64,000 nucleotides of DNA from Arenicola marina (Eukaryota; Annelida; Polychaeta; Arenicolidae): contig OZ025248.1 of assembly GCA_964019135.1 (NCBI GenBank), forward strand, positions 30,683,670 to 30,747,669, written 5' to 3'. Each line of letters begins with the position of its first letter. Position 1 is the first letter of the stretch. Shown piece by piece: positions 32,572-64,000 of the stretch. Both the position numbers and the translations under genes were made by a program. The notes under the pieces were generated by a model, which saw only the letters and a list, made by a program, of their open reading frames with translations, made no database searches and was not told the origin of the DNA.

Positions 32572-32676
32572 ATGGGTTCTAGGCGTGGATCGAGAAAATA
32601 CGTCAACATCGGGAAGAAATTGAAGTACCGAAAACCCCTGCGTCCCTTTGTCTGCTCCACATTTCAAGACTTTCAG
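32572..32676 (+). CDS. TTC41: TTC41-like exon 1
   Basis: Residues 1-35, phase 0 at the donor. The start was chosen because the 35-residue leader ending in 'RPFVCSTFQDFQ' has the length and motif seen in vertebrate TTC41. It joins directly to 'EERD' in exon 2. The donor is CAG|GTATAT. Confidence 0.85.
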
Positions 32677-35600
32677 GTATATATGTCGACACTATGACTG
32701 GGAACCCGACTAAAGGACAAGTGCTACACCTAGTTTACAAAAATAATCTTCTACATTTTTTCCTTAAACTTTTAGAGATTGATTGTTGTTATTATAGCTT
32801 TAAAAAAAAAAAAAAAAAAATCATACCTCACCATACTATATTTTTTAGACACAAAGGGATGAATATTTAATATTTCACCATTGGTCATAATGAAAAAATC
32901 ATGCAATTATTCACATTTTATACTGTTAAGCTTGTGGGTTTATTAAGATTGATTGTTGGCGTTGCTTGTTGTGGTATACATTAGGTTCTGATATGTAGGC
33001 CATATGGATTCCAAAGGCGAATTCAGGTGGGGCCCCCCCAATTCAGGAGCAAAGTGATCACTGGTGGTCACTGGCGTTGCTCAACATGCAACAGGGTTGG
33101 GATTTTTTTCGGAAAATGATGATTTCTTCAACTACATATTACAAAATCTATCTTTGATGTGTTAAATGTTGCGCCCCTTGAGGGATGAATAATAATGGGG
33201 GGGGGGGGGGGGCCTTTTGCGTACGTGTTAACAAGTTTACGTTTGTTCATTTCAGGAGGAACGCGACATTTTAGTGAAGAAAGTATTCCCAGCGATCGAC
33301 GCCCTCTGCCGGCTGAGAGGCACATACTGCGCACCCGTTGACCTCAGATGGGGCATAAACGACAGTCAGGCCAAATCCGGTCACGTGGTCACGCTGTGTC
33401 TGGACTACGTCACGCAGTGCGCTCCCTTTTTCGTGTGTCTGCTCGGCGAACGCTACGGGTCTCACCGACCGCCGGACTCGAACCCACTACCGCCCGGCTT
33501 CAAAGACCTGTCCGAGGAATCTCACTGGCTGGATAAAAACCTCGTTATGGCGTCCGCCTCGGGATATGACTGGGTGACGTCTGAGCGCTTCCGAAACTGC
33601 AGCGTGACGGAGTTGGAGTGCGAGCAGAGGGAGTTCCTTGCGGCGGAGTACGGAGATAACTTTTCGCACTATTATTTCCGTCAACCGAGTCACGTGGAGC
33701 TCCTCCATACGGAACTCCCGGATGCGGAACGCGATGCGAAACTAAAAGTCTTCGAGGCTGAATCCGAATATTGCGCAAGGAAAATGGCGGAACTGAAGGC
33801 GCGCATAGTTAAGAAGGCTCTTCCCGTGAAGTACTTCCGGACACCAGAGGAGCTCTGCATGATGGCTCTCCAGGACTGGAAGGCAGTCGTCGATACTCTG
33901 TACCCGCCCTTCTACCGCTCGGTGTCCTCCAGTAAGTGATCCAGATGCTAATATTCTCGGTAATCCTCAGTAACCGATAACAACAGATTAAGAACGGTAA
34001 TGGATGGTTAGAATAATACTCGTGCATTGCATATATAATGGGGAAATGCTGCAAATGGGAAATACTGCAAATGCGGAGTATTAGATACTATACATATACT
34101 ATACTATACAGGTATAAATATAGTACAAATCACCCTAAGTAGTTTGCATTTGTCGATTGTGGGTTTTTTCGCACTTGAATCTTGATTAAGCCAAAACGTC
34201 TGCGCACCGAATGTATATCTTATTGTCTCGATCTCCTTCAGCTTTTCACATTCAGCTGCTAAAGTGATATTCATATTTTGCCGCGATACTGCTATCACGG
34301 TAATTTATCAAGTAGTGTTTATTTCACTGATTATTTTATCAAAAGAGGTTGAAAAAACCTTTATTAAGTAAACTTCTTAAAGGTTCCACTGGTGCTGCAT
34401 ATTATAGGTATCGATCTACACCTGTTCAGTACACCTTGTCTTTATGTCTATAGAAACGGAGATGGTAGCAGAACTGCTTTCGCACGCCGCTTTTGTGGAG
34501 ACGCGCCGACGTGTCTACGTCAGAACCCGTGACCTCGAGGACCTCTTCAATGACCTGACCCAGTTTGCCCTCACGGCATTGGTCAAAGCGCCGGAAGTAC
34601 CGATACCGCCTCCCCCGACCGCGTTTTCTATCAGCCGACGACTGAGAAACAAGTGAGTCTTGTATGGTTTTATTTGCTTTGTTTTTTAAGGGCGCCTCCC
34701 TAGCTTAGTTAGCCAAGCAGAGTTGCAAATCCACAGGTCATTGGTTTGCGCCTTAAGTTGGCACTTAGGGTATGTTTCATCCAATCACATGTCATTGTCC
34801 TGAGAGTTTCGTTGGCCCAATAAGCCTTTAAAATCGGTTCAATCATCAATATTTTAGTTTAGTACTCGATCTGTCAGTGGATTTATATAGTGGTGCCTTA
34901 TCGGTCACTTAAGAAGATACATGTATCTTCGAAGAGATTAAAGGGTAATCCTTGTCCTTTGAGGACGCTGGTTAACGACAGGGGCGGAGATGCGCCATAT
35001 TGGCACATTTTCTCTGATGCACGAAACGATATGTAACTCTATGAGTATAAGATGTTATCCTGACTACTGATAACTGTATATGGCCACTGATAATGCGCAA
35101 ATCGTATTACAATCAACACTTAGCCATGTCGACATGACAATAGCAAAGTCGACATTAGCAATGTCGACGCGGCATTGTAAGACGTTCGATAGCGTATATT
35201 CGACATTTTGAAGCAGTATAGAATGCAGTTTGCCTGCGCGCAGAAACATTCACCTTATAAGACAGTCGTGAACTTGACATAACCTTTTGACCGTTCATAA
35301 TCCTCCTTCAGTACAACGAGAGGCATGACTGATGCCAATGCTAATACACGCATTAAACCACACATATATAATACTTAGTCGCCGGTCAATAAGCCCAAAG
35401 CCGCCAATAGGACCATTTATGTTGGATTATGAGCTCACCTAGTTACTTGATGGGTTGAAAATCAGCCTGCCTGGTAACTCAATGGTTACCAGATACTTCT
35501 AAATCTTCATACTTAAAAGTCATTATGCTTACTAAATGGCATAATGGTCGTTTTCCTTGGGTTGATGCGAGGTTGCAAAGGAAATTATCTTCTTTGTGTT

Positions 35601-38600
35601 CGGCGGTGCAATGTACACTAGTCAACTCGTCCAGCGATGTGTGTCCTTGTTATTGGCACAGATGAGTTCAATGAATGTTATGTTTTGCCAGTACCTGATT
35701 AGTCCACATGCTCACAGTGGTAGTATCGCTGAGCTCTTCTCACAACCCATTAATTGTGTACAACACCCTCTGCAGTTTCAGGCTATCGGTTTTATCAGCC
35801 GATGACCTACATCATGGGAAATCTTCGCTGTAAGATTCTAAGAAGAAGCTGACCAACTACAAAGCGCATTATAAATGTCCACATACGATCGACCTATCGC
35901 TGCACGTTACTCCGACACGGGGGTAACTTCTGTCTCTCAAGAGACCTCGATATGTTCCACCCCATGACAGTTATGACCTAGTGAACCCAGAGTAGGGTCT
36001 CATAGACTTCGACCGGCTGGTTCCCTGGTAAAATATTTCATACGCCTTTCTGCCGACAATAATTAGCCATATTATTTTATTTTGAGACATACCGGAGACA
36101 TATATGGCACACCTTTGGGCACTGATTTCTCATTTCGGGGGCGCCCACCCCCACTCCTACCCCCTCCTCCCCCTCCTCCTCCCGATTCCACGAATCATTA
36201 TCTAGCTTCCAGGTGTTCAGTGCATTGTCTTTAGCACCATCCCATCAGCTAGTCACATATAATTCCCAAAAAATAACATGATAAATGTATCTAGTCTCTT
36301 CTTTGAGCTGTTTCATCCATGGTGATGTCAAACCTATCCAGTGAGAGTGCATGGACCGCACCTTTAACCTCATCGGGGGACGATCCTGTTTATTCTGCTT
36401 ACTATAAATACACAGGGTATCTATCGATCCCGCCACCAATCCGCCTTCCATCGCCGCCATTCTGAGGCCGTTATCGAGCGGTGGGCACCCATAGAACGAA
36501 ATCCGTCATCGATACGTTCACTGCGTGCAATCACTGTGGGTATTGCTCACACACCGACCCAGGCGAGGATGAAAGAAGCCACGTGACACAGACCGCCCCA
36601 GAGGCTCCTGTTCTCGACACGGTCATCCAACCTTCATTCAGTCACTGAACTACGACTTTCACATTTTTTACAATAGAAATGGATAACTTAATTTGTAACC
36701 TATTATTTTAAAATTATATACATGCTGATACATTTTCTGCTGTAATTTGGCGGGTATACATTATGGATGGATAGATGGATTTTTGCAATAGAAATGGATA
36801 ACTTTATTTCTGCACTATTACTTTCAAGGAATATACAAGTTAATACATGCGTCGCTGTAATTTGGCGGGTAAAAATGATGGATGGATGGATGGGTGGATG
36901 TTGTAGTGTACAAGGCCATGTAGTGGCACGCATAGGCTAAACCGGGCTTGGGAACACCTCGGTAGTGAGAGGCAAGGATACGATGATTCCATGCACAGGT
37001 GTGGGGTTCGAATCCGCAGTCTCTAGTCTATATTACGCTACCCTCTCGATCACGGCGCGTCTCCCATGCCGTTATTAAAGGAGATATATAGACCTATAAA
37101 AATTCATGGGCGCAGAGAGTAAGAGCGAGCGGAGAGCGACAAATGAAAAGCAGTTGGCATGCTGGAGTTGGAAAATAATTATTCCGAATTCGCCAACGCA
37201 AGCTAACGTTTTTTGGGTTTTTTTTGCGAATTTGGGCTGTTGTGTTATTTTTTCGTCATCATAGCAAAGGAAGGAGGGTCATGATTTGAGCATGTATGAT
37301 TTCTTCATTTGTCGGACCGGGCAAATAAAGCTGCGTCGGTCTGCTTTTCAACGCTGATAAAAAAACGACCAATTGCCTTCCTTTATTTGTTTGCCTCGCA
37401 ACAACTTTATTGGCTCCCTGACGTTCCTGGGTGAGTCTGTTTGTATTTGTTTGCGTTGGCGATATGGAAATAGAAAAGCAATCGAAGGAAATCACCGGCA
37501 AGTTACTTGCGTTCCACACGATCGATTGCGTCACCCTGGAATGTAAATCAGATCTAGAGGGATACGCACGATCTATTACGACCAGTGATGCTGATGAAAC
37601 ACAGCTCAACAAACCAAGTACCAATCCACGGGCCTCAATCGAAAATATGCCACGACGATTAAGACAAGCGTTAGAACAGGTACTTATTAATCAAGATGTA
37701 CTGAACAGGGTCTGAACAGTTCAATTTCAAGGCTGTTCTATAACAATTTAGACACCATCAAGAAATACATTCTAACGTTAGTCAAACGGAAAATATTTAT
37801 TGGTGCGCTTATTGCATAATTAAATGAATGTTACTAAAAATGTGGCTGATGTTAAAAGACAATGTCTGAAGGATATGAAGGAAAAGGTAGTGTCCCAGTG
37901 CATTTCGTCATCAAGATAAGGGAATTTTTGTCTCTCAGTGCCATCGTCAGAAGATGGTAATATCAGAGTAACCCTAAAAAACAGAATGCAATAATTTTCA
38001 AAACAAACATTCTGTGACTGTTAAACGTCGTTCGGAAAGGTAAAAAGAGCGCAATGGATTTTTTCCGTTTGTATGTTATTGAATGACTGAGGCTAAATGT
38101 GTTCCTTGAGCTTCTATTGTGATAACCCGGCTTACGGTTACTGTCGCGGCCGTATCTGTATCACTCACGGAAACCCATTAGACGCACTTAACCTCGCCTC
38201 GAATATACACTCGACAAAATCCCCAGCCCCCAAAATCACACACACACTTACACCCCTGACGCACCATCACTGCCTCCACCCCAATTCCCATTCACACCCC
38301 CACCCCCACCTCTCGCGCGTGACTATAGAGCTATCGGCCCCACCACGAGCCCCACCCTCTCGCACCTGACTCAAAAGCTCCCTCTGCTCTCACCCCGAAC
38401 CCCCCCGCCCACCTCCACCCCCCCCCCCCACCCCCCTTCAACCCCCCGCCCACGGCTCTTGGGTTGATTCTGGCTCTCGCGGCCTCTCACTCCAGTTAAG
38501 TGCCATGAAAGGCTCTCTGAATGGGCCTAATCACCGGGATTGAGATATGAGACAACATTGCCGGCTGTATGTTTTGTCCCCGGTCTTTCACACTGTGTGT

Positions 38601-41600
38601 CTTGGTCCTTGTTCTGAGAGTAGCGCTACGGAGTGTGTGGATTCTTCACTCATCACTTCACTTCACGCAAGATCGACTTCTTTACCACTCCGTCTGGCAA
38701 TTCCGTGCACAGGTGGCTGGTTACCCGACTCGGGTCCCATCCTGAAAAATGCAATTTGGATGCATTCGGCCGCTTGTTGTGATATCGGTCGTGCTATATG
38801 AGGGTTACGAGATATACACCTGAGGTACCGGCCGCACGCGCTTGTTGCCGTGTATTTTATAATTGCTGAATTTTAGCATGCCATGATACTTCATTGCTGT
38901 AGTATGTGACAACATTCTACCAATTAGCTTTATTATCAAGTTTAAGTTAGACCTAAGATGTACTACTCACAAAGTAATCATAATTAATAGTAAAAGTGAA
39001 CTAGTACTAAACTAGCTTAACATCTCTGTCTATCATATAGTTGAAAAGTAGTTTTTACAGACAAATCGGTCTATATATACAGATCTCTCTCCATTCTACA
39101 GGCTTCGTGACTCACATCTTGACGTCTCAGTGTTTGAATTAAAGCAATTCTTATCGAAGTCGTTGCCTTCTTTACCACTATAGGCCCGAGCCGCAGGCCT
39201 CCAGAATCACCTCGGTACTGCTCCTGGTCGGTGAGCGGGGATCCGGAAAGACATCCGTTCTCGCCAACTGGATCGGCGACTTCCAGGGTTGCCATGACGA
39301 GATGCGCGTCATCTCGCATTTCGTCGGCAGTTCTGCGCAGAGTACAGATGTCGTGTCGCTCATGCGCAGATGTACCGTGGAGCTGCGCGAGGAACGCTTG
39401 GGAATGGGTGAGCATGGCGGGAATCTACTAGGCCAAGGAAAGCGCGTGTTTGCTTCTTCCGGGTTCCACACTCACTCGGGTTTGGTTTTCATTCTCGCTG
39501 TGTGTGTGGTATCAGCAATTGTTAATAAAGCAACAATGTCACGCAAGTAAGATGTTTTCTATGGTCCAGCTGAAAAGGTATTATATGAATTTGATGTATC
39601 ACTACTGGTGATTTAGCGCCTCGAAGCCGAAGTAATAGGTTAAAGTCCCTCTTGTGTAAACTGAGTTACTATACCAGAGGTTGCTTTCAACTCATTTGTC
39701 TTTCTCTCTCCCCCTCCTTCCCCGTCTCTGTGTTTCTCTCTATACATTTTGTTCACTCTCTTTTTTTTATTTACTATTTATAATCCTATCGAGCCAGACG
39801 CCAACTGAACATTTCTGTGTTTAGACACCCGTAGTGGTTCGGTGACGGAAACTGACCCCAACGACTTCCTGCACGTGTCGGAGGCCTTCCACGCCGCTCT
39901 AAGTCTGGGTCCCTGTGTCCTCGTGTTCGACGGGGTGGACGAGCTCGGAGAGACCTACAGCCACTCCGTCCAACAGGTGAGTCAGTCCTACAGCCACTCC
40001 GTCCAACAGGTGAGTCAGTCCTACAGCCACTCCGTCCAACAGGTGAGTCAGTCCTACAGCCACTCCGTCCAACAGGTGAGTCAGTCCTACAGCCACTCCG
40101 TCCAACAGGTGAGTCAGTCCTACAGCCACTCCTTCCAACAGGTGAGTCACTCCTACAGCCACTCCGTCCAACAGGTGAGTCAGTCCTACAGCCACTCCGT
40201 CCAACAGGTGAGTCAGTCCTACAGCCACTCCGTCCAACAGGTGAGTCAGTCCTACAGCCACTCCTTCCAACAGGTGAGTCAGTCATACAGCCACTCCGTT
40301 CAACAGCTGAGTCAGCCCTACAGCCACTCGGCCTAACAGGTGAGTCAGTCCTACAGCCACTCCGTCCAACAGGTGAGTCAGCCCTACAGCAACTCTGTCC
40401 AACAGGTGAGTCAGTCCTACGGCCACTCCCTCCAACAGGTGAGTCAGTCCTACGGCCACTCTGTCCAACAGGTGAGTCAGCCCTACAGCCACTCCGTCCA
40501 ACAGGTGAGTCAGTCCTACAGCCACTCCCTCCAACAGGTGAGTCAGTCCTACGGCCACTCCGTCCAACAGGTGAGTCAGTCCTACAGCCACTCTGTCCAA
40601 CAGGTGAGTCAGTCCTACAGCCACTCCGTCCAACAGGTGAGTCAGTCCTACAGCCACTCCGTCCAACAGGTGAATCAGCCCTACAGCCACTCTGTCCAAC
40701 AGGTGAGTCAGTCCTACAGCCACTCCGTCCAACAGGTGAGTCAGTCCTACGGCCGCTCCGTCCAACAGGTGAGTCAGCCCTACAGCCACTCCCTCCAACA
40801 GGTGAGTCAGTCCTACAGCCACTCCGTCCAACAGGTGAGTCAGTCCTACGGCCGCTCCGTCCAACAGGTGAGTCAGCCCTACAGCCACTCCGTCCAACAG
40901 GTGAGTCAGCCCTACAGCTGCTCCGTCCAACAGGTGAGTCAGTCCTACAGCCACTCCGTCCAACAGGTGAGTCAGCCCTACAGCCACTCTGTCCAACAGG
41001 TGAGTCAGCCCTACAGCCACTCCGTCCAACAAGTGAGTCAGTCCTACAGCCACTCCGTCCAACAGGTGAGTCAGTCCTACAGCCACTCCGTCCAACAGGT
41101 GAGTCAGTCCTACAGCCACTCCGTCCAACAGGTGAGTCAGTCCTACAGCCACTCCGTCCAACAGGTGAGTCAGTCCTACAGCCACTCCGTCCAACAGGTG
41201 AGTCAGTCCTACAGCCACTCCGTCCAACAGGTGAGTCACTCCTACAGCCACTCCGTCCAACAGGTGAGTCAGTCCTACAGCCACTCCGTCCAACAGGTGA
41301 GTCAGTCCTACAGCCACTCCGTCCAACAGGTGAGTCAGTCCTACAGCCACTCCTTCCAACAGGTGAGTCAGTCATACAGCCACTCCGTTCAACAGCTGAG
41401 TCAGCCCTACAGCCACTCGGCCTAACAGGTGAGTCAGTCCTACAGCCACTCCGTCCAACAGGTGAGTCAGTCCTACAGCCACTCTGTCCAACAGGTGAGT
41501 CAGTCCTACAGCCACTCCGTCCAACAGGTGAGTCAGTCCTACAGCCACTCCGTCCAACAGGTGAATCAGCCCTACAGCCACTCTGTCCAACAGGTGAGTC

Positions 41601-44600
41601 AGTCCTACAGCCACTCCGTCCAACAGGTGAGTCAGTCCTACGGCCGCTCCGTCCAACAGGTGAGTCAGCCCTACAGCCACTCCCTCCAACAGGTGAGTCA
41701 GTCCCACAGCCACTCCGTCCAACAGGTGAGTCAGTCCTACGGCCGCTCCGTCCAACAGGTGAGTCAGCCCTACAGCCACTCCGTCCAACAGGTGAGTCAG
41801 CCCTACAGCCGCTCCGTCCAACAGGTGAGTCAGTCCTACAGCCACTCCGTCCAACAGGTGAGTCAGCCCTACAGCCACTCTGTCCAACAGGTGAGTCAGC
41901 CCTACAGCCACTCCGTCCAACAAGTGAGTCAGTCCTACAGCCACTCCGTCCAACAGGTGAGTCAGTCCTACAGCCACTCCGTCCAACAGGTGAGTCAGCC
42001 CTACAGCCACTCCGTCCAACAGGTGAGTCAGTCCTACAGCCACTCCGTCCAACAGGTGAGTCAGTCCTACAGCCACTCCGTCCAACAGGTGAGTCAGTCC
42101 TACAACCACTCCGTCCAACAGGTGAGTCAGCCCTACAGCCACGCTGTCCAACAGGTGAGTCAGCCCTACAGCCACTCCGTCCAACAGGTGAGTCAGTCCT
42201 ACAGCCACTCCGTCCAACAGGTGAGTCAGCCCTACAGCCACTCTGTCCAACAGGTGAGTCAGCCCTACAGCCACTCTGTCCCACAGGTGAGTCAGTCCTA
42301 CAGCCACTCCGTCCAACAGGTGAGTCAGCCCTACAGCCACTCCCTCCAACAGGTGAGTCAGTCCTACGGCCACTCCGTCCAACAGGTGAGTCAGTCCTAC
42401 AGCCACTCTGTCTAACAGGTGAGTCAGCCCTACAGCCACTCCGTCCAACAGGTGAGTCAGTCCTACAGCCACTCCCTCCAACAGGTGAGTCAGTCCTACA
42501 GTCACTCCCTCCAACAGGTGAGTCAGTCATACAGCCACTCCCTCCAACAGGTGAGTCAGTCCTACAGCCACTCCGTCCAACAGGTGAGTCAGTCCTACAG
42601 CCACTCCGTCCAACAGGTGAGTCAGCCCTACAGCAACTCTGTCTAACAGGTGAGTCAGCCCTACAGCCACTCTGTCCAACAGGTGATTCAGTCCTACAGC
42701 CATTCCCTCCAACAGGTGAGTCAGCCCTACAGCCACTCCCTCCAACAGGTGTGTCAGCCCTACAGCCACTCCCTCCAACAGGTGAGTCAGCCCTACAGCC
42801 ACTCCCTCCAACAGGTGAGTCAGCCCTACAGCCACTCGGTCCAACAAGTGAGTCAGCCCTACAGCCACTCTGTCCACTAGGTGAGTCAGCCCTACAGCCA
42901 CTCTGTCCCACAGGTGAGTCAGTCCTACAGCCACTCCGTCCAACAGGTGAGTCAGCCCTACAGCCACTCCCTCCAACAGGTGAGTCAGTCCTACGGCCAC
43001 TCCGTCCAACAGGTGAGTCAGTCCTACAGCCACTCTGTCTAACATCTGAGTCAGCCCTACAGCCACTCCGTCCAACAGGTGAGTCAGTCCTACAGCCACT
43101 CCCTCCAACAGGTGAGTCAGTCCTACAGTCACTCCCTCCAACAGGTGAGTCAGTCATACAGCCACTCCCTCCAACAGGTGAGTCAGTCCTACAGCCACTC
43201 CGTCCAACAGGTGAGTCAGTCATACAGCCACTCCCTCCAGCAGGTGAGTCAGTCATACAGCCACTCTAACAGGTGAGTCAGCCCTACAGCCACTCCGTCC
43301 AACAGGTGAGTCAGCCCTACAGCCACTCCGTCCAACAGGTGAGTCAGCCCTACGGCCGCTCCCTCCAACAGGTGAGTTCGCATGATACAGTAGAAATTGA
43401 TATCACATCCCCTCTACGAATTAATGATGTTCAATTTCCATCCAATCAAGGTAAATATGTCTTCACAGATACCTTTGATTGTTTCAGGTGAAGGAGATGG
43501 GATGGCTACCTCACCCACTTCCACCACAATGTAAGATTATTGTGACGTCATCCAAGTCAGATGCCACTCATCTCTCGCTGGGTCAGAGAAAAGACACACA
43601 GACGCTGCAGGTATACGTTATGACTTAATTCTGTCCACATGCACTACAGGTCGGCGTTATGATTTCACGTGTAATAACTTGGATGGTGAGAATGATGATA
43701 CAATCGTGGACGAAATTTGAGACATGGGCTGGCTGCAGTTACCGCTACATCAACGAGGTCGTTATGATGGTTTCCAGACGTTGATTGGGGGCGCAGTCAT
43801 GCCCTTGCGACATCTATGATTGATACAGTGGGTTACACATTGTTGTTATACTCTGTACGCACCTAAATTCACGCATTGGTACAAGTCTATGAAATTATAC
43901 TTACACCCCTTAACGATAGTCATCTGCACTGACAGCCAGACCACGCCCCCTTATCGGCAGTACATCTGCACTTGCCGCCAGGTCCCGCCCCTTTTACAAC
44001 TGTACACGTGCGTTCACACGCAGACTCCGCCCCCTCTAACGACAGTACATATGCACTCACAGCCAGACCACGCCCCCTTATCGGCAGTACATCTGCACTT
44101 GCCGCCAGGTCCCGCCCCCTATAAAAGCAGTACATCTGCACTCACAACCAGACCCCGCCCCCTTTTACAACAGTACATATGCACTCGCCGCTAGGTCCCG
44201 CCCCTCAACGATGATGTCACCAAGTCTGACGTCGTCCGCCGACACCTCTCCATCCACTGCAAGAGTCTCGACGAGCAGCAGTTGGACCGCATCGTTAGCT
44301 GCAAGCTCTCTGATAGGCCATTATTCCTGACCGTGCTGGCCAATGAGCTGCGTCTCTACGGCGTCTACAGCCAGCTGGACTCCTATCTGGAATCTTATCT
44401 TGAGGCCACGAGTCTGCGAGACCTCTGGAGCAAGATCGTCCGGCGCTGGATTCGGGATTACAGCTGCTTCCATGAGGGTGCCGGGCCCGACGTGGACTCG
44501 GATGTGTCAATGGGTGAGTTTGCGCCTAAATAATTGTCATAATGATGACAACTTGCCTTCACATATGTCAAGATCACATTGCCACACGTACCAATTATTA

Positions 44601-47600
44601 CATTTATCTGTGATGAAGTAAAAGGTTGTTGCAAACATCTGGAATCGTGTGGACATTTGACTGAAGCAAAATAAGGTTATTATATTGATGATAATCAATA
44701 AACCATTTCTCAGAATTTCTAGATATACATTAAAATAACTAACAATATGTACGATATTGTGTTTAGGGATTGGTATGTTCATTTCGTATGGTCGCTTCGA
44801 CAAAGGCTCAGTGATTTTGATCTTAGTTACATGAAGGCCTCCATAAGATGAAGTTCAAATAATTGTAAATGACATTCGCAGTGAATTAAATAATTGCATT
44901 AGTTTAAATTCATGTTTCGTATGACCACCAAAGGACATTTCATTTAAATACATTTAAATAAATTCATTTAAATTGATTAGAATGATCAATTGCGCTCCGA
45001 CCCTAAATGTTAATGGGTGATTCGGGGGGGGGGGGGGGGATAACGGGAAGACCCCGTATGGGTGACGGAAAACAATGCAAATGCAAACATAGCAGACAGA
45101 TTATTCACGCGATGTTATGACCTTGACCCCGCTCACAGAGCTGACGGGCTGGGTGGCCGACGCCCTGAGGCTGATCGCCGTTTCCAAACACGGCCTCAGC
45201 AAAACGGAAATCCTCGGCATGCTAGAGATGCTGGGTTTCCATGGTGACGACAAAGTGACGTCACTGGCCTGGGCGATGTTCCGGTCGGCGGCCCAGGAGT
45301 CGCTTATCGAGAGGCCTGGCGGCTGTATCACCTTCTTCCATCAGCACTTCAAGGAGGCCGTCGAACACACGTTGTTCGGTAAGAACACGTTTTGGAAAGC
45401 TTTGATGTTAGCTCTGCAATGCTTCCCAGCGCTAGTTATATATGTATTTTTGCGTCATAAGTGAAATTACTTCCACTATAATGATGCAGCAAATCTTACA
45501 TTATGCATGAAAGTTTTTGTAGATCTGTTGAGCACCCTGGTCGTAAACCTTCCGGGGAACTCGTCCCCAACCCCAGGGACCCTCAATCCCCCCCCCCCCC
45601 TCCCCCCTTTTATTATACAATATAATGGATCCGTCCTTGCTCACTGAGGGAAGTAGAAGAAGACTTACAACTTTGGGTCGGGACGCGGTATTGGATCGAA
45701 TTCCTCTAAACATCGCTGCTTTACCTTTTGCCCCAGCCTCGGCCACGCCATCCGTGTTCCACGACAAGCACACCTTCGCGAAGCCCCAAGTGTCCCTGAC
45801 GCCGCTGGAGCCGAGTGTCAACGAGAGACTGCCCTCCCCACAAATCTTCCACCACCACGTGGCTCAGTACTTCCTGCCTAAGCAACACTGCGCGCGCAGG
45901 ACGGAAGAGCTGCCATGGCAACTGGAACGCGCGGGGGACTTTCACACCCTGGAAACAGTCTTGGCCGAACCGAAGTATGTTGACCTTGCAGCATCAGATT
46001 GTGATTGACTGTTTCGTAAAAATTTGCTGATTACAACATATAGCATTTTGTAGTTGCTTGGGACAGTTTGGCGATAACAGGTCGAGACCACGATCAGGGT
46101 ACATATCACGTCTATATAATAGCCGATTGCAAAATTCTGTATCATGAAAAAGCAAAGGGAAAGAAGGCAGACGAAGCTTAAACTTCCAACCACGTCAGGC
46201 CCGCTCCATGACATGTATATATATATGATGATATGTCGTGCCAATCGCATGTGAGCAACTTAATTCTTGCTGGCAGAGTCTTCATCGACATCGCCGGAGA
46301 TAAGCTGCTTCACCCTCGGCGGATAGAGATGCTGCAGTACTGGGCGGTGCTGAAGCAGGCCGGCCACGACCCCGCCGTCACCTACTGGCGCATGCTCAAA
46401 AGGGCCTTGGGCTGGAATGAGGAGGAGACGCGCCGCATGCTGTGCCAGAGCGCCGACAACAGCTCAGACCTCCACTCCACGGGAAGCTCCCTGTCCTCGG
46501 CAGCAGAGGTACATTAATATTGACAACTCTTCACGGAGGGGCGTGGGTCGGCAACAGAGGTACATTAATATTGACAACTCTTCACGGAGGGGCGTGGGTC
46601 GGCAACTGAGGTACATTAATATTGATAACTCTTTACGGAGATGGGTGGGTCGGCAACAGAGGTACATTAATATTGATAACTCTTTACGGAGGTGGGTGGG
46701 TCGGCAGCAGAGGTACATTAATATTGATAACTCTTTACGGAGGTGCGTGGGTCGGCAACAGAGGTACATTTTTATTGACAACTCTTCACGGAGGGGCGTG
46801 ACTCGGCAACATAATTACATTATATTGATAACTCTTTACGGAGGTGGGTGGGTCGGCAACAGAGGTACATTAATATTGATAACTCTTTACGAAGGTGGGT
46901 GGGTCGGCAGCAGAGGTACATTAATATTGATAACTCTTTACGGAGGTGCGTGGGTCGGCAACAAAGGTACATTTTTATTGACAACTCTTCACGGAGGGGC
47001 GTGACTCGGCAACACAATTACATTATATTGATAACTCTTTACGGAGGTGGGTGGGTCGGCAGCAGAGGTACATTAATATTGATAACTCTTTACGGAGGGG
47101 CGTGGGTCAGCAACAAAGGTACATTAATATTGACAATTCTTTACGGAGGGGCGTGGGTCAGCAACAGAGGTACATTAATATTGACAATTCTTCACGGAGG
47201 GGCGTGAGTCGGCAACATAGGTACATTTATATTGATAACTCCTCACGGAGGTGCGTGGGTCGGCAACAGAGGTACATTAATATTGATAACTCTTTACGGA
47301 GGTGCGTGGGTCGGCAACAGAGGTACATTTTTATTGACAACTCTTCACGGAGGGGCGTGACTCGGCAACATAATTACATTATATTGATAACTCTTTACGG
47401 AGGTGGGTGGGTCGGCAACAGAGGTACATTAATATTGATAACTCTTTACGGAGGGGCGTGGGTCAGCAACAGAGGTACATTAATATTGACAATTCTTTAC
47501 GGAGGGGCGTGGGTCAGCAACAGAGGTACATTAATATTAAAAGTTCTTCACGGAGGGGCGTGAGTCGGCAACATAGGTACATTTATATTGATAACTCCTC

Positions 47601-50600
47601 ACGGAGGTGCGTGGGTCGGCAACAGAGGTACATTAATATTGATAACTCTTCACGGAGGTGCGTGGGTCGGCAACAGAGGTACATTCATATTGATAACTCT
47701 TTACGGAGATGGGTGGGTCGGCAACAGAGGTACATTAATATTGATAACTCTTTACGGAGATGGGTGGGTCGGCAACAGAGGTACATTAATATTGATAACT
47801 CTTTACGGAGGTGGGTGGGTCGGCAGCAGAGGTACATTAATATTGATAACTCTTTACGGAGGTGCGTGGGTCGGCAACAGAGGTACATTAATATTGATAA
47901 CTCTTTACGGAGATGGGTGGGTCGGCAACAGAGGTACATTAATATTGATAACTCTTTACGGAGGTGGGTGGGTCGGCAGCAGAGGTACATTAATATTGAT
48001 AACTCTTTACGGAGGTGCGTGGGTCGGCAACAGAGGTACATTTTTATTGACAACTCTTCACGGAGGGGCGTGACTCGGCAACATAATTACATTATATTGA
48101 TAACTCTTTACGGAGGTGGGTGGGTCGGCAACAGAGGTACATTAATATTGATAACTCTTTACGAAGGTGGGTGGGTCGGCAGCAGAGGTACATTAATATT
48201 GATAACTCTTTACGGAGGTGCGTGGGTCGGCAACAAAGGTACATTTTTATTGACAACTCTTCACGGAGGGGCGTGACTCGGCAACACAATTACATTATAT
48301 TGATAACTCTTTACGGAGGTGGGTGGGTCGGCAGCAGAGGTACATTAATATTGATAACTCTTTACGGAGGGGCGTGGGTCAGCAACAAAGGTACATTAAT
48401 ATTGACAATTCTTTACGGAGGGGCGTGGGTCAGCAACAGAGGTACATTAATATTGACAATTCTTCACGGAGGGGCGTGAGTCGGCAACATAGGTACATTT
48501 ATATTGATAACTCCTCACGGAGGTGCGTGGGTCGGCAACAGAGGTACATTAATATTGATAACTCTTTACGGAGGTGCGTGGGTCGGCAACAGAGGTACAT
48601 TTTTATTGACAACTCTTCACGGAGGGGCGTGACTCGGCAACATAATTACATTATATTGATAACTCTTTACGGAGGTGGGTGGGTCGGCAACAGAGGTACA
48701 TTAATATTGATAACTCTTTACGGAGGGGCGTGGGTCAGCAACAGAGGTACATTAATATTGACAATTCTTTACGGAGGGGCGTGGGTCAGCAACAGAGGTA
48801 CATTAATATTAACAGTTCTTCACGGAGGGGCGTGAGTCGGCAACATAGGTACATTTATATTGATAACTCCTCACGGAGGTGCGTGGGTCGGCAACAGAGG
48901 TACATTAATATTGATAACTCTTCACGGAGGTGCGTGGGTCGGCAACAGAGGTACATTAATATTGATAACTCTTCACGGAGCTGGGTGGGTCGGCAACAGA
49001 GGTACATCAATATTGATAACTCTTCACGGAGGGGCGTGACTCGGCAACATAGTTACATTAATATTGATAACTCTTTACGGAGGTGGGTGGGTCGGCAACA
49101 GAGGTACATTCATAGTGATAACTCCTTACGGGGGTTGGTGGGTCGGCAACAGAGGTACATTAATATTTTTTACGGAAGTGCGTGGGAGGGCGTAAAGCTA
49201 CGTTTGTTATCATTTAAATATATTATAGTAACAGGATGTAACTGGGTAATGGGTGGGGAGGGCCAAAAGAAACCTGTGACCCCCCACCACTAAGCGGTCA
49301 ATTGCCCCCCACCCCCTCACAGCCTTCGTCGCATTCCAGCTATTACACATCAACGAATAAAGTTCATATTATAGCAGATCATCAGCCAGTTTTATGTTGC
49401 TGAACATTAAAGGACCAAGACTTGGAAGACTTCCTCTCGGCTACCGACCCCGCCGCCATACCCCGGATCACGATGACGTCACCCTCCAGCCGGGATTCCA
49501 GGACGACAGCTGGCCAGGACTCCGTGCTGAGACCCGCTCTGACGGACCGCGGTCCCTCTCCCACATACTCTGAGGATGACGTCATAAACGCGACGACAGA
49601 GGCGCCTGACGGGGACGGTGTGAACTATAGAACGCCGCCACCCGAAACCGAAAGTGAAAACAATATTCATGATAGTCGGGACGATGATGGCGAAGATGAT
49701 GATGACGAAGATGATGAAGATGAATCATGTGCAGCAGATAACCAATCAGAGTCGCCGATCGGTCTGGTGAGGGCTACGATTTTATCTTTGACGTAACGTC
49801 TTGCACGGGTGAAATCCAGGTAATATTAATGAAAAGATATAACAGTACGCATGGATAAATTGACCGCTTAAAAGCGATGTTCACAACCATTCAGCGTTAT
49901 TTGTTTGTAACCCATTGCGTGCGAACTTTTCATGTGGGACCATGCAGGCTGCGGCGGAATTTGCAACCTGGATGAAGTGCATATCTCATTTCTTCATTTG
50001 CAGAGGACTGAAACGATTGACGGTGATGAAGACAGCGAAGATGAAGGTGGGTAGATATGATGATCCTGGCTAGACTGACCACACTAACTATTCCCCTTGT
50101 CTCGGTAGGCTTCGTGGAGGCCGGGCCTCCTGCCCCATGGCCCTGGCTAGACTGACCACACTAACTATTGCCCTTGTCTCGGTAGGCTTCGTGGACGGCC
50201 GGGCCTCCTGCCCCATGGCCCTGGCTAGACTGACCACACTAACTATTGCCCTTGTCTCGGTAGGCTTCGTGGAGGCCGGGCCTCCTGCCCAATGGCCCTG
50301 GTTAGACTGAACACACTAACTATGGCCCTTGTCTCGGTAGGCTTCGTGGACGTCCGGGCCTCCTGCCCCATGGCCCTGGCTAGACTGACCACACTAACTA
50401 TTGCCCTCGTCTCGGTAGGCTTCGTGGACGGCCGGGCCTCCTGCCCCATGGCCCTGGCTAGACTGACCACACTAACTATTGCCCTTGTCTCGGTAGGCTT
50501 CGTGGAGGCCTGGCCTCCTGCCCCATGGCCCTGGCTAGACTGACCACACTAACTATTGCCCTTGTCTCGGTAGGCTTCGTGGAGGCCGGGCCTCCTGCCC

Positions 50601-53600
50601 CATGGCCCTGGCTAGCCTGACCACACTAACTATTGCCCTTGTCTCGGTAGGCTTCGTGGACGGCCGGGCCTCCTGCCCCATGGCCCTGGCTAGACTGACC
50701 ACACTAACTATTGCCCTTGTCTCGGTAGGCTTCGTGGACGGCCGGGCCTCCTGCCCCATGGCCCTGGCTAGACTGGCCACACTAACTATTGCCCTCGTCT
50801 CGGTAGGCTTCGTGGACGGCCGGGCCTCCTGCCCCATGGCCCTGGCTAGACGGAGCGCACTAACTATTGCCCTTGTCTCGGTAGGCTTCGTGGACGGACG
50901 GGCCTCCTGCCCCATGGCCCTGGCTAGCCTGACCACACTAACTATTGCCCTTGTCTCGGTAGGCTTCGTGGAGGCCGGGCTTCCTGCCTCATGGCCCTGG
51001 TTAGACTGAACACACTAACTATTGCCCTTGTCTCAGTAGGCTTCGTGGAGGCCGGGCCTCCTGCCCCATGGCCCTGGCTAGACTGGCCACACTAACTATT
51101 GCCCTTGTCTCGGGAGGCTTCGTGGACGGCCGGGCCTCCTGCCCCATTGCGCTGGCTAGACTGGCCACACTAACTATTGCCCTTGTCTCGGTAGGCTTCG
51201 TGGAGGCCGGGCCTCCTGCCCCATGGCCCTGGCTAGACTGGCCACACTAACTATTGCCCTTGTCTCGGGAGGCTTCGTGGACGGCCGGGCCTCCTGCCCC
51301 ATTGCGCTGGCTAGACTGGCCACACTAACTATTGCCCTTGTCTCGGTAGGCTTCGTGGACGGACGGGCCTCCAGCCCCATGGCCCTGGCTAGACTGACCA
51401 CACTAACTATTGCCCTTGTCTCGGTAGGCTTCGTGGAGGCCGGGCCTCCTGCCCCATGGCCCTGCCTAGACTGACCACACTAACTATTGCCCTTGTCTCG
51501 GTAGGCTTCGTGGAGGCCGGGCCTCCTGCCCCATGGCCCTGGCTAGACTGACCACACTAACTATTGCCCTTGTCTCGGTAGGCTTTGTGGACGGCCGGGC
51601 CTCCTGCCCCATGGCCCTGGCTAGACTGACCACACTAACTATTGCCCTTGTCTCGGTAGGCTTCGTGGACGGACGGGCCTCCAGCCCCATGGCCCTGGTT
51701 AGACTGACCACACTAACTATTGCCCTTGTCTCGGTAGGCTTCGTGGACGGCCGGGCCTCCTGCCCCATGGCCCTGGCTAGACTGACCACACTAACTATTG
51801 CCCTTGTCTCGGTAGGCTTCGTGGAGGCCTGGCCTCCTGCCCCATGGCCCTGGCTAGACTGGCCACACTAACTATTGCCCTTGTCTCGGTAGGCTTCGTG
51901 GAGGCCGGGCCTCCTGCCCCATGGCCCTGGCTAGACTGACCACACTAACTATTGCCCTTGTCTCGGTAGGCTTCGTGGAGGCCGGGCCTCCTGCCCCATG
52001 GCCCTGGCTAGACTGACCACACTAACTATTGCCCTTGTCTCGGTAGGCTTCGTGGAGGCCGGGCCTCCTGCCCCATGGCCCTGGCTAGACTGACCACACT
52101 AACTATTGCCCTTGTCTCGGTAGGCTTTGTGGACGGCCGGGCCTCCTGCCCCATGGCCCTGGCTAGACTGACCACACTAACTATTGCCCTTGTCTCGGTA
52201 GGCTTCGTGGACGGACGGGCCTCCAGCCCCATGGCCCTGGTTAGACTGACCACACTAACTATTGCCCTTGTCTCGGTAGGCTTCGTGGAGGCCTGGCCTC
52301 CTGCCCCATGGCCCTGGCTAGACTGACCACACTAACTATTGCCCTTGTCTCGGTAGGCTTCGTGGAGGCCGGGCCTCCTGCCCCATGGCCCTGGCTAGAC
52401 TGACCACACTAACTATTGCCCTTGTCTCGGTAGGCTTCGTGGACGGCCGGGCCTCCTGCCCCATGGCCCTGGCTAAACTGACCACACTAACTATTGCCCT
52501 CGTCTCGGTAGGCTTCGTGGACGGACGGGCCTCCAGCCCCATGGCCCTGGTTAGACTGAACACACTAACTATTGCCCTTGTCTCGGTAGGCTTCGTGGAG
52601 GCCGGGCCTCCTGCCCCATGGCCCTGGCTAGACGGAGCGCACTAACTATTGCCCTTGTCTCGGTAGGCTTCGTGGAGGCCGGGCCTCCTGCCCCATGGCC
52701 CTGGCTAGACTGACCACACTAACTATTGCCCTTGTCTCGGTAGGCTTCGTGGAGGCCGGGCCTCCTGCCCCATGGCCCTGGTTAGACTGAACACACTAAC
52801 TATTGCCCTTGTCTCGGTAGGCTTCGTGGACGGCCGGGCCTCCTGCCCCATGGTCCTGGTTAGACTGACCGCACTAACTATTGCCCTTGTCTCGGTAGGC
52901 TTCGTGGACGGCCGGGCCTCCTGCCCCATGGCCCTGGCTAAACTGACCACACTAACTATTGCCCTTGTCTCGGTAGGCTTCGTGGACGGCCGGGCCTCCT
53001 GCCCCATGGCCCTGGCTAGACTGGCCACACTAACTATTGCCCTTGTCTCGGGAGGCTTCGTGGACGGCCGGGCCTCCTGCCCCATGGCCCTGGCTAGACT
53101 GACCACACTAACTATTGCCCTTGTCTCGGTAGGCTTTGTGGACGGCCGGGCCTCCTGCCCCATGGCCCCGGCTAGACTGACCACACTAACTATTGCCCTT
53201 GTCTCGGTAGGCTTCGTGGACGGCCGGGCCTCCTGCCCCATGGCCCTGGCTAGACTCACCATCAGTGTGGGACAGCTACTGGCCGTCCTCTCATATTTCC
53301 GCGACGCCGAAAAGATGTTACTGACAGCGCACAGGAAATTAAAACAGGTTGGTGAAGCTTCCGGTCAGTCGGAGAACAGTTTCAGAATCGGTTTAAGTTT
53401 ACATATATATGTCTGCACCAGCGACAAAAAACTACTGGTTCCAGCAGCAGTTGAATTATGTTGAGTGTACTTTGTTACCTTCGCCATTGCATGGTTTCAG
53501 CTTCACATGAGCAACCCGGAGTTCAAGCAGCTGTTATGCGGTCTGGAAGAAGGTGTCGGAAACATGTACCGATTTCAGCTGCGCAACAGGGATGCCTCCG

Positions 53601-56600
53601 ACTGGTACCACCGGGCCCTAGAGTCCGTGGACGAGGTCTTGATGGAGCTGCAGGATGCTGAGACCATCCGCTTCATGAAGGAAATGAAAGGTCAGTTGAT
53701 ATTATTACACAGGTTCTCCGGAATCGTGCTCGGTGATTATATTGATCTTGGTGGCCTGTGTATTGACACTGGTACACTTTACAAAGCAATTTCAATGTCT
53801 ATTATAACTTCAATGGCAACAGGTGCAGCCGATCAAGGCATAAGCAAGCAAAGTTTGACCAACTTGAGCACATACCGCTGGAACAATGTCAGGAGGCATG
53901 TTGTTGTTTGATATCTTGGCGTCCATGTCTTTGTGTCTAATGAGCTGTCATGCCACGGATACGTGGAACAGTAATAAGTGGGACGCAACGTTCCGTATGA
54001 TACACAATGGTTTACGAAAAGAAACGCCGAAGAAGCAATAAATGAGCTATTCACCGCCTATCTTTGTTTCTTCGTGAATGCCGACGATGACGATGTGATT
54101 TGCAGCAACGAATTGATTAAACTTCCTCACCACAATTATGTATAATGCCCCATATATATAACATCTAAATTATATATGTCATGTAACCTCATATAGAGCC
54201 TGGTGGGTTTGTGGGTCTTTCCGCGGCCACGGTGGGGCGGCTTCGTGGACCGAGTGGTAGAACAATCGGCTGCACATCAATAGTTTCCTTGATCGAAACC
54301 CGGACATATTTCATCCAAATCGTTCATTGTCCGCGGAAGTTCTTTGTCCAAATTTGGCCCTTGTGTGCACAAAACTGGCCTTAAGGAACAATAATCTCTT
54401 TCCAGGGCGTCTATTGGACTATATTGGGTTCATGAGGAGTCACAGTCGGCAGTTTAGCGAGGCAGAGAGACTGCTGGGCCAAGCCATGATGTGCTTCAAG
54501 GAGTCCGGCAGTCTCATAGGCAAGGCCAACGCCGCTCACCACATAGGTTACCTCAGGTAAATGTCCCGCCAATAAATATTGTAAATGCGATTGTTCGCAA
54601 CGTTAATTTACGTTGGTTTAAACTGAAGACAATTTTCTCCAGTAGAACTGAATGCCACATTGTGACGATTAAGACCATTACGTGCATTACTAATTATATT
54701 ATATATATCAAAGAACACATTCTAAAGTATCTTGCCCTTGTTTTTACATAAATAATCGAGAGATAATATTAACTGACTGAAGACCAATTTGAAATGCGTG
54801 TGGCGTGATTGATCCTAACTTGACATCGGTTAGCTTGGTCATGGGAGAGTTTTCTTCATTTCCTGTTGAAGCCATTTTAAAATGATGTTTCTTACCGTCC
54901 AATCAGGATGAAGCAAGGTCGATGGTCCGAGGCTGAGAGTCTCTTCAGGCAGTCCTTAGCAACGCTTGAGGTGTGGTTTGGGACGTCTCATCCGCGAGTC
55001 TCAGAGGTCCTCGACGACTTTGGAATCCTCCTCTGCCATCCGAGAAACAAACACAGGTAAGATATCTATACGTGCTACGATACTTCCTTTATAAGGGGCC
55101 TGAGCTGCCGATCAACATGTCAAGGAAAGGATTCAAGCTTTGGTACCAGCATCTGGGGCATCCCTCATACGGCCCCACTTTATTTCCATGTGAACCAGTT
55201 TCCTCCTTGGCCCAAATTAGGCTTCATTTGCATATAAGTGGCCTAAATCTCCAACGTTATATTGCATTATGCTAAGTAATGGACTTGATCGTTGCACAGG
55301 CGACTTGGTGATGATTATTTGTAACAAATTATATTACAATTGTTGAGTCATGAAACACTAGTATCACCCAGTACGATAAACCCCTATTCGTGTACTCTGT
55401 CGCAAACGGTTTCCCCAGCTATGGGAATTACACAATGACGTGTTTCCATTGCTATGTCCAACATTTAGTCCGGACCTGACTGAAGCGGAGTTCAAGTTCC
55501 GGAGAGCCCTCCAGATCAGGGAGCAGTGCTTTGGTCCGGATCATCTTCTCGTGGCCACCACGCTCTTCAACCTAGGTGGGTTAACAATGGTGGAGGTGGG
55601 CGTGCATTCCTCGAAACTTGGCGCAATTCCCCTGACACAGCCTCTCGCCCATAATTTAGGCTAAACAGAAAAACTTTGTGTTGCAGCAACACTTTCCCAT
55701 GCGTGCTGCATGTTATTAATTGCACATTGCGTATTTGTATTCATGCAATTACTTTTTTCCATTTAAGATATTTACTATGTTTCTTGGGGACAATTATTAT
55801 TAAAGGGCCACCAATCTGCTGTAAATGAGTTTTAGAATGAAGAGCTCGGTCCAGGATGTAGGTTCATTGATGTGTCTGTCTCACGTAGGTCGACTGTTGA
55901 AGGGTAAGACTGGGCGGATGGCGAAAGCAGAGTCACGGGACATGCTAAAAAGATCTCTAGACGTCCGAAGTCAACAACTGGGTACGTTAAAGCGAAAGTG
56001 ACGTCACACCAGTAACTTCCTTTGTGTAAACCCCAATAAGAGTATTATCATTATTTGCTAACAATAACTGATATTGGTTCTAGTAAAAGTGCAAGTCAAA
56101 TTATATACGGGAGCATTGATAAACTATCGAACTACAGAGCGTAAAGTGAACTATCGGATTGTAGAGCGCAAAGTGAACTATCGAACTACATAGCGCAAAT
56201 TGAGCTATCGAAGTATGGAACGCAACGTGAAAAATCGAACTATAGAGCGCTAAGTGAACTATCGAATTATAGAGTGCGAAGTAACCTATCGAATTGTACA
56301 GCGCAAAGCAAATTAACGATTTTCTCTGTTAAGACAGTAAACTATCTTTCCTGTAGGTGTTGACCATGCCTTGACACAAGCGGTACGCCGCTGTTTAAAT
56401 GACCTTGAAATGTCATTGAAGCAGCGTCCGTCTGAGATTTTGAAGAGACGTTCAGGCGATTACCCATACAGCCGTCTAAGTTGGCACGAAGATGACCTGA
56501 GAAGGTTATCGGCGAAGATGACAGAGAAAGGATTCGATAACGTCACTCACAGGACCAAAACTAGTGACGTCACTGACGGAGCGAAGCCAGATGTAATGGT

Positions 56601-57345: not shown

Positions 57346-58310
57346 TGAAACGATCAACCTGCCGCCAGCGGTCACCCGCAGCCCTATGGCGCAGGCCGGG
57401 TATGGCTCTCGCGTGGACACCATGGAGCGCGATATGGCCACCCGGCGTTCAGATCTCCCCGTGACGTCATATTAAAGACGTCCAGACTTCGCCGTGACGT
57501 CATATTCAAGGCGTCCAGCCTGCACCGTGATGTCATATTAAAGGCGTCCAGACTTCGCCGTGACGTCATATTAAAGGCGTCCAGACTTCACCGTGATGTC
57601 ATATTAAAGGCGTCCAGGCTTCGCCGTGACGTCATATTAAAGGCGTTCAGACTTCGCCGTGACGTCATATTAAAGGCGTCCAGACTTCGCCGTGACGTCA
57701 TATTAAAGGCGTCCAGGCTTCGCCGTGATGTCATATTAAAGGCGTCCAGACTTCGCCGTGACGTCATATTAAAGGCGTCCAGACTTCGCCGTGATGTCAT
57801 ATTAAAGGCGTCCAGACTTCGCCGTGACGTCATATTAAAGGCGTCCAGACTTCACCGTGATGTCATATTAAAGGCGTCCAGGCTTCGCCGTGACGTCATA
57901 TTAAAGGCGTCCAGACTTCGCCGTGACGTCATATTAAAGGCGTCCAGACTTCGCCGTGACGTCATATTAAAGGCGTCCTGACTTCACCGTGATGTCATAC
58001 TAAACATTCATTTAATTGAACAATTGAATACTACTGGCTAGACAAGTACTTGCACGAAGCTGGCTTCGCCCTAATATTCGATGTATACAATATATTTATG
58101 TTCCTCGTAAACTTACGATCAGTCGTTAAGTTAGCCTATGACTGTTGACTGTCCACCTGTCATGCGTGTATGGATGTATTGATAACACGTCATTGTAAAA
58201 GTCAAGTCGGGCGAATCATTTAGCCTTTATTTAGCGTTTGCTAAGAATATACTTTTACTTTAGACCGAGCAGTTTTGAAACTCACAAAACAATAAAGCGA
58301 TGACCGTGTG
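57346..58310 (+). promoter_or_regulatory. Probable 3' UTR with polyA signal
   Basis: AATAAA at 58,291-58,296, with GT-rich sequence after it. It is the first clear hexamer after the stop. If used, the 3' UTR is about 1 kb and contains the CRE-rich minisatellite. Confidence 0.5.
57455..58003 (+). repeat. 33-bp CRE-containing minisatellite, about 16 copies
   Basis: Unit is 'gtgacgtcatattaaaggcg' then 'tccagacttcgcc'. Most units contain the perfect palindrome TGACGTCA (CREB/ATF consensus); the others have TGATGTCA. The array starts about 110 bp after the stop codon. Confidence 0.94.
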
Positions 58311-62789: not shown

Positions 62790-64000
62790 GGGTCTTCGAA
62801 TGGGGATGCGGGAGCTCTAATCAGGATTCGTGGGACCAATAGGGATCTGATGGGTCGATTAGGGTTGTGTGGGACAAATCGAGCTTTGTGCAGGGTCGAA
62901 TTCGACGGTTCGAAACGGGATCCGTGGGACACATTGGTATACGACGGGTCAAACCTGGTTTCGTTGGGTTCAATCTGGATTAGCAATGTTCAATCAGGAT
63001 CACCAAGGTCGAATCGGGATCTGAAGGTCAAATAGGGATGCGACGGGTCAATCTGCATCCTATTTGTCAAATCTCTATCTAGCGGCTTCCATCAGTTTCT
63101 GAGGGAGTCAATAAGAATCATATGAGTCCAATCTGGATCCGACAGATTAAATCTGGGTCTGACGGGTCTAGTGGGGATGCCAGATCTGAGAGGCAAAATA
63201 GGCGTCTGTGAATGATATCTGGATCTGAGGGATCATTCTGGATCTGAGAGGTCAATTCTGGATCTGAGATGTCCAATGTGGATCTGAAGGATCAAATCTG
63301 GATCTGAGGGTCAAATCTAGATCTGAGGGGTCAATATGGATCTGAGAGGTCAAATCTGGATCTGAGAGGTCCAATCTGGATCTGAAGGATCAAATCTGGA
63401 TCTGAGGGTCAAATCGGGATCTGAGGGGTCAATATGGATCTGAGAGGTCAAATCTGGATCTGATGGATCAAATCTGGATCTGAGGGTCAAATCTGGATCT
63501 GAGGGGTCATTCTGGATCTGAGAGGTCAAATCTGGATCTGATGGATCAAATCTGGATCTGAGGGTCAAATCTGGATCTGAGGGGTCAATCTGGATCTAAG
63601 AGGTCAAATCTGGATCTGATGGATCAAATCTGGATCTGAGAGTCAAATCTGAATCTGAGGGGTCATTCTGGATCTGAGAGGTCAAATCTGGATCTGATGG
63701 ATCAAATCTGGATCTGAGGGTCAAATCTGGATCTGAGGAGTCAATCTGGATCTGAGAGGTTAAATCTGGATCTGAGGGATCAAATCTGGGTCTGAAGGGT
63801 CAAACTTGGATCCGAGGGTCAAATCTGGATCTGAGGGATCAAATCTGGATCTGAAGGGTCAAATCTGGATCTGAGGGTCAAATCTGGATCTGAGGGGTCA
63901 ATCTGGATCTGAAAGGTCAAATCTGGATTCGAGAAGTCAAATCTGGATCTGAGGGATCAAATCTGGATCTGAGGGGTTAAATCTGGATCTGAGAGGTCAA
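62790..64000 (+). repeat. 20-bp minisatellite, runs off the window
   Basis: From about 63,195 the unit 'ggatctgagaggtcaaatct' (19-20 bp) repeats about 40 times to the window end. From 62,790 to 63,195 it is degenerate ('gggatctgatgggtcgatt'), an old eroded flank. Variants 'gagggtcaaat', 'gagaggtc' and 'gatggatc' recur in a fixed order about every 100-120 bp, giving a higher-order period of five or six units. Confidence 0.93.

Follow-up and report, generated by a model that had tools for sequence, protein, structure and literature searches.

Minisatellite arrays across splice sites in a TTC41-like gene and other genes of the annelid Arenicola marina

A TTC41-like gene with arrays across four of its splice sites

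The 64-kb stretch of DNA analysed here (the window) occupies 30.68-30.75 Mb of contig 1 (OZ025248.1) in the 867-Mb, 762-contig assembly of Arenicola marina, and it contains a TTC41-like gene in which introns 5, 6, 10 and 12 each carry a minisatellite that reaches across a splice site. The gene, of DUF4062-NACHT-TPR type (32572..57345, plus strand), has 19 exons and 18 introns and encodes 1573 amino acids. When read exon by exon, all 18 introns are bounded by GT-AG and a single open frame runs through the gene intact, with the DUF4062 domain encoded in exon 2. The best homologue in a protein search comes from Lingula anatina (43% identity over 82%), followed by proteins of Ptychodera and Branchiostoma belcheri (38% each), and in a TTC41 tree the worm protein is placed beside Lingula on a long branch with a support of 88 in the Shimodaira-Hasegawa-like approximate likelihood ratio test (SH-aLRT). 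The mitochondrial COX1 (contig 762) finds its best match in Pilargis wolfi (91%); among the 120 of 7773 hits listed, the named ones next in rank are also from annelids, and a mollusc first appears at about fiftieth place (83%). Together, COX1 and the tree point to a polychaete near Pilargidae, and an amphioxus origin was rejected on the strength of the protein and COX1 searches.

Arrays within the gene were taken from Tandem Repeats Finder (TRF; 38 rows in the window), counting those of 3 or more copies and a period of 12 or more, and were compared with the splice sites of the gene model. The array of intron 5 (39954..43377, plus strand; 33 bp in 104 copies) covers the donor at 39976 and extends about 22-23 bp into exon 5 (39825..39976, plus strand), whose last 23 bp supply the exonic portion of the first unit. 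Its unit is CCTACAGCCACTCCGTCCAACAG|GTGAGTCAGT, and a two-unit probe, used in a search that skips very common words, gave 57 matches in the genome, all 57 inside this array. The array of intron 6 (43906..44204, plus strand; about 42-43 bp in 6.7 copies) covers the acceptor at 44195 and enters exon 7 by 9 bp; it is weak and degenerate, with 70-73% matches at its base period. In intron 10, the array (46497..49167, plus strand; 51 bp in 52.5 copies) covers the donor at 46508, extends 11 bp into exon 10, carries a TAA stop immediately after the donor in its unit, and shows a higher-order period of 356 bp (7 units). The array of intron 12 (50065..53261, plus strand; 78 bp in 41 copies) covers the acceptor at 53211 and reaches about 50-51 bp into exon 13 (53211..53347, plus strand), such that the first 51 bp of the exon form the end portion of the array. 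Its units contain a branch-point-like CTAAC, a pyrimidine stretch, AG and exon 13 sequence, with GGAG in place of GTAG in a few units, and a higher-order period of 310 bp (4 units) is present. The exonic copy is identical to the array consensus in intron 5 and departs from it by 1.3% in intron 12 and by 7.8% in intron 10.

Both types of exon-intron boundary are therefore hit in one gene (two donors and two acceptors), and 4 of the 5 arrays counted span a splice site. The exception is the array of intron 18 (56122..56308, plus strand; 27 bp in 6.9 copies), which touches no splice site and serves as a counter-example within the gene; intron 3 holds only repeats of 2-2.5 copies. The original prediction had placed minisatellites on the live splice sites of exactly these four introns and had described the other 14 as free of boundary-anchored arrays, and the comparison of TRF arrays with the gene model bears out both points. 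Its further statement that the arrays start or end precisely on the splice sites does not hold, as they cross the junctions by 9-50 bp. Just outside the coding region, a 33-bp array of 17 copies (57444-58004, plus strand) begins 99 bp past the stop codon and may belong to the 3′ untranslated region or lie just beyond it.

Further boundary-spanning arrays in the genome

Beyond the TTC41-like gene, 10 boundary-spanning arrays of up to about 180 copies were found in 8 other genes, which supports the suggestion, made from the window, of a general process. The genome was searched with a pattern of three CAGGTRAGT motifs spaced 10-40 bp apart, and the same pattern read backwards served as the control, yielding 3713 and 1464 matches, respectively. 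The first 100 pattern matches listed come from 4 loci, all in the initial 22.5 Mb of contig 1. Sequence was taken from all four, and at three of them (ALDH1L, an antistasin-domain gene and CFAP54) it is the matched array that reaches across the donor of an open exon. At about 25 matches per locus, 3713 matches would extrapolate to the order of 150 such loci.

The ALDH1L gene, identified through Pfam and a solved 10-formyltetrahydrofolate dehydrogenase, was modelled with 10 exons, and the region 597503-622000 of contig 1 holds 10 arrays of at least 3 copies, of which 3 span junctions (two donors and one acceptor). The first donor array (605765-612308) has a 39-bp unit and about 168 copies assuming continuity, since between 607602 and 611500 it is traced by pattern matches only, with none at 608.98-610.82 kb. 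The second donor array consists of 28 bp in 24 copies. The acceptor array (100 bp in 60 copies) extends 58 bp into its exon, while its other end and the preceding exon lie beyond the sequence examined. Two more ALDH1L arrays begin 15 and 17 bp past a donor; the distance of 17 bp is that of a 63-bp array of more than 10 kb, which runs within an intron of this gene from 616344 to beyond 626500.

The CFAP54 donor array (contig 1, 22498663-22506661, minus strand) extends over 8.0 kb with a 44-bp unit; the gene was identified at 2e-59, and 8 introns that precede the array in this gene (2540 bp) hold none. In the antistasin-domain gene (contig 1), a donor is spanned by 34 bp in 13.5 copies, and Pfam places an antistasin domain in the preceding exon. 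The fourth locus contains a donor array with a 27-bp unit (contig 1) in a gene that we presume to be claudin-like from its W-GLW-CC motif only, Pfam having given no match. Directly behind this array, back to back with it in one intron, a different array with a 42-bp unit extends for 12.9 kb or more (1090030 to beyond 1103000), and the single pattern match at this locus falls in the 42-bp array, not in the donor-spanning one. Loci of the control pattern contributed a 42-bp donor array in an axonemal dynein heavy chain gene and a 45-bp donor array at an exon at 37.05 Mb of contig 2.

A positional sample of ten 10-kb stretches (L047-L056; 100 kb), chosen by position only, was also read, with exons recognised visually by their frames and splice motifs. 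It holds 18 arrays covering 30.1 kb. Flanks were examined for 14 of the 18; two arrays span a donor, and two others begin 3 and 17 bp past one. The spanning arrays have a unit of about 70 bp reaching 30 bp inside an exon of a WASH-complex gene (Pfam WASH-7_mid, 5.5e-9), and a unit of 62 bp reaching 14 bp inside a probable exon without a Pfam match (L051). Minisatellite thus makes up about 30% of the sample, and one 10-kb stretch consists of it entirely. The consensus of an 84-bp array of 9.9 copies (L056:5186-6015), inspected by eye, encodes what look like C2H2 zinc fingers in tandem when its minus strand is read.

Assemblies can misstate the copy number of long arrays, which is the argument for regarding the feature as an assembly artefact. 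However, the four arrays of the window sit inside one intact gene with readable exons on both sides, the pattern recurs with different units in 9 genes on contigs 1 and 2, and the splicing of the amphioxus cases is backed by reverse transcription PCR (PMC3087553). An artefact is accordingly very improbable.

Two other repetitive features were noted in the window. Its left third carries 36 matches to the Metazoa_SRP (7SL) RNA gene above the gathering score (259-22930, plus strand), forming one tandem array with a spacing of mostly 0.5-0.7 kb, and a 20-bp repeat array at 63217-64000 continues past the right end.

Splicing of the arrays and their origin

The arrays cross junctions, are single-copy in homologues at the junctions that can be assessed, and are widespread in the genome. 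Probably they are junction-spanning minisatellites of the kind termed mirages in amphioxus, in which the outermost site is used, the extra copies are removed with the intron and the protein is unchanged. We infer the following course from the sequence. First, a short segment holding a splice site would be duplicated in tandem by slippage, unequal exchange or repair. The array would then grow by more tandem duplication, including that of blocks of 4-7 units; the higher-order periods of 356 bp and 310 bp suggest past block duplications. The functional site would be kept at the exon edge, as the first donor of a donor array or the last acceptor of an acceptor array. Since this site stays at the edge, extra copies would come to lie inside the intron and leave with it, resulting in a longer intron and the same protein.

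Support for this reading comes from homology. The exon 5|6 and 6|7 joins of the TTC41-like protein are gapless in alignment with 8 homologues, which points to one ancestral coding copy and thus to an intronic status for the intron 6 array and for all further units of the array in intron 5. The ALDH1L protein is likewise gapless across both donor arrays (DKIQ|GKTIP and KPAQ|VTPLT) against the solved 10-formyltetrahydrofolate dehydrogenase (E=2e-149). Where homology is this strong, the extra copies are probably spliced out.

Several observations weigh against so simple an account. The one-copy evidence covers TTC41 5|6 and 6|7 and the two ALDH1L donor arrays; TTC41 10|11 and 12|13 fall in poorly conserved linkers, and the joins there rest on frame and flanking homology. 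The first 11 units of the intron 5 array and about the last 7 of the intron 12 array are open in the frame of the gene, so inner splice sites there would give longer proteins, and inner units may serve in some transcripts. Growth from the exon end would be expected to leave divergence rising away from the exon, and this is significant in only 2 of 7 arrays. A permutation of positions revealed no clear conservation of the splice cores of inner units (0.08-0.46 for intron 5, 0.43-0.62 for intron 10 and 0.025-0.44 for intron 12). In addition, several of the gene names rest on one or two exons. A Fisher test made cell by cell found fewer changes in the splice cores of inner units than elsewhere (1e-7 for intron 5 and 5e-4 for intron 12); the two tests together neither demonstrate selection on inner copies nor rule it out.

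The junction sequence itself bears on how the arrays are tolerated. AG|GT occurs in the unit of 7 of 11 donor arrays (introns 5 and 10, the ALDH1L 39-bp and 28-bp arrays, antistasin, CFAP54 and the contig 2 exon), and such units are potential dual-specific sites through which the mistaken use of a downstream donor could be re-spliced away. The other 4 carry CG|GT (claudin-like and dynein), AA|GT (WASH) or GG|GT (L051). Re-splicing through AG|GT therefore cannot be the general reason for tolerance, and it was ruled out as such.

The same sequences might be taken to mean that the arrays have a function, for instance as a store of alternative or dual-specific splice sites through which protein length or the removal of introns is varied; human UBC, which is spliced stochastically through tandem dual-specific sites (PMC10809524), would be the parallel. 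The 6 donor consensus units put to one test contain AG|GT, several units keep the frame (33, 51, 78, 39, 27, 42 and 45 bp), and introns 5 and 12 have inner copies that are open in part. This idea is improbable, given that no more than half of the periods, 7 of 14, divide by 3 (a hand count with the WASH unit taken as 70, and no clear excess over one third), that 4 of the 11 donor arrays lack AG|GT, that the intron 10 unit has its TAA stop just past the donor, that the splice cores are not clearly conserved, and that homologues are single-copy where tested.

A separate question is whether splice sites take part in the birth of the arrays. Under the null model, a seed unit can arise uniformly anywhere in the array-collapsed gene except wholly within an exon. 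A survival filter can clear arrays out of coding sequence but cannot make those at junctions denser than those in mid-intron, and an excess over uniform seeding is therefore the test. In the TTC41-like gene itself, arrays are enriched at junctions above chance, with 4 of 5 spanning a splice site against 0.71 expected (P=0.0015 to 0.0017); this agrees with the original prediction that four boundary arrays are hard to explain by chance, although it was this very feature that led to the choice of the gene, which makes the value post hoc. ALDH1L shows no excess, with 3 of 10 against 2.05 expected (P=0.33), or 2 of 9 (P=0.59) when the ascertained 39-bp array is left out. Pooling the two genes gives 7 of 15 (P=0.009); dropping that array leaves 6 of 14 (P=0.024). 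Spanning arrays in these genes also have larger copy numbers than the others (p=0.03, or 0.06 without the ascertained array), which is a hint only.

The genome pattern adds a second line of evidence. The first four loci of the reversed control are spread over 119.8 Mb, compared with 22.5 Mb for the tandem donor, a 5.3-fold difference in density (one-sided P=0.015). The control is imperfect, since TGAGT also occurs within GTGAGT, the reverse complement of the control pattern may overlap the end of an exon, and donor arrays occupy two of the control loci. Three control loci were inspected on one flank each; two are donor-spanning (the dynein gene and the contig 2 exon), and the third has no exon on that flank. 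When array units were scored for donor strength with a weight matrix, 4 of 32 reached a score of at least 5, against 0 of 32 reversed; two of the 4 are window arrays known beforehand.

Two accounts compete for these numbers. In one, arrays are born uniformly and splicing buffers their survival, such that arrays in coding exons are lost, intronic and junction ones are kept, and splice sites play no role in starting them. The repeat-rich positional sample (18 arrays, 30.1 kb of 100 kb), the lack of excess in ALDH1L, the empty CFAP54 introns and the sample arrays, 16 of 18 of which show no donor score of at least 5 (one of the remaining two, in L049, has no exon on the flank examined), all fit this account, whereas the TTC41 and pooled counts and the density of tandem-donor loci, with two of three inspected control loci also donor-spanning, speak against it; it has close to an even chance of being right. 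In the other account, tandem duplication is concentrated at donors, where R-loops formed during transcription or breaks at intron 5′ ends, for example, would provoke it. Four non-spanning arrays begin 3, 15, 17 and 17 bp past a donor, and none was noticed so near an acceptor in TTC41, ALDH1L and 14 of the 18 sample arrays. Among the spanning arrays found without the donor pattern, and with the contig 2 exon excluded, 6 lie at donors and 3 at acceptors. The excess of tandem donors over the reversed control, from a genome search made with a donor motif, points the same way. ALDH1L runs counter to this, the numbers are small and partly post hoc, and the same lean would result from a filter more tolerant of donors than of acceptors. 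Donor hot spots are thus a serious candidate, held at a little less than the uniform account.

Taken together, the two-gene and pattern tests suggest a bias, perhaps towards donors, without establishing it, and we regard a bias of array birth towards splice sites as falling just short of an even prospect. Of the two explanations offered with the original prediction, seeding by splice sites is accordingly suggested by the TTC41 and tandem-donor figures and not established in view of ALDH1L; selective survival, in which arrays with a junction that still works are retained, must contribute, and alone it cannot lift boundary arrays above purely intronic density. More speculatively, and with rather less confidence, the 5′ splice site may be a genome-wide hot spot of minisatellite birth in this annelid, where transcription or splicing would provoke the duplication, hundreds to thousands of introns would have grown by copying their first junction, and the mode would be shared with lancelets or have evolved anew.

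Comparison with known systems

A structure that is probably of a known kind, the mirage, is present in a second animal phylum, where it is unusually long and frequent. No report of such arrays in annelids, and none of arrays of this kind and length outside cephalochordates, was found in a literature search with most subscription journals outside its reach. What had been a lancelet curiosity of a handful of genes thereby becomes common enough to be treated statistically. Extended runs of near-identical splice sites offer a natural test of how the spliceosome chooses among equal sites, and the arrays make visible a route of intron growth and possibly of intron gain. The candidate role of splice sites as seeding hot spots is testable in this genome; if donors do act in this way, the birth of minisatellites would be tied to transcription or splicing.

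The closest precedent is that of amphioxus, where mirages are described for Adh3, troponin C, the globins BflGb6 (acceptor) and BflGb9 (donor), and PGBD5 (PMC3087553, PMC3902484). The amphioxus Adh precedent named in the original prediction is thus real, and the acceptor type, for which that prediction gave no precedent, had already been reported in BflGb6. As in amphioxus, minisatellite-like tandem repeats span the exon-intron boundary in the worm, and both donors and acceptors are affected. The amphioxus arrays are reported to be unstable in length and to leave splicing undisturbed (PMC3087553, PMC3902484); those of the worm were read from the DNA of one assembly. The annelid host, as opposed to a cephalochordate, is a difference of host range and not of structure. 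Size and frequency also differ, in that the two BflGb6 haplotypes have 6 and 3 units, while worm arrays reach about 180 copies and 8 kb, and two worm genes (TTC41 and ALDH1L) carry four and three arrays, respectively. The globin work already proposes that mirages are a route to new introns (PMC3087553 / PMC3902484).

Two human systems are related. In human segmental duplications, internal tandem repeats located at the borders of exons and introns arose by minisatellite expansion of units of about 30 bp, average four copies, and give new introns or alternative forms in recent paralogues (PMC2812944); the worm arrays, in contrast, lie in conserved genes whose protein appears unchanged where this can be assessed. 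The polyubiquitin gene UBC contains tandem dual-specific splice sites, and the authors argue that such expansions are less harmful because they are spliceable (PMC10809524). Like UBC, the worm arrays present AG|GT at unit spacing, but only in 7 of 11 donor arrays, and whereas the units of UBC are coding and partly kept in the mRNA, the extra units of the worm are probably intronic.

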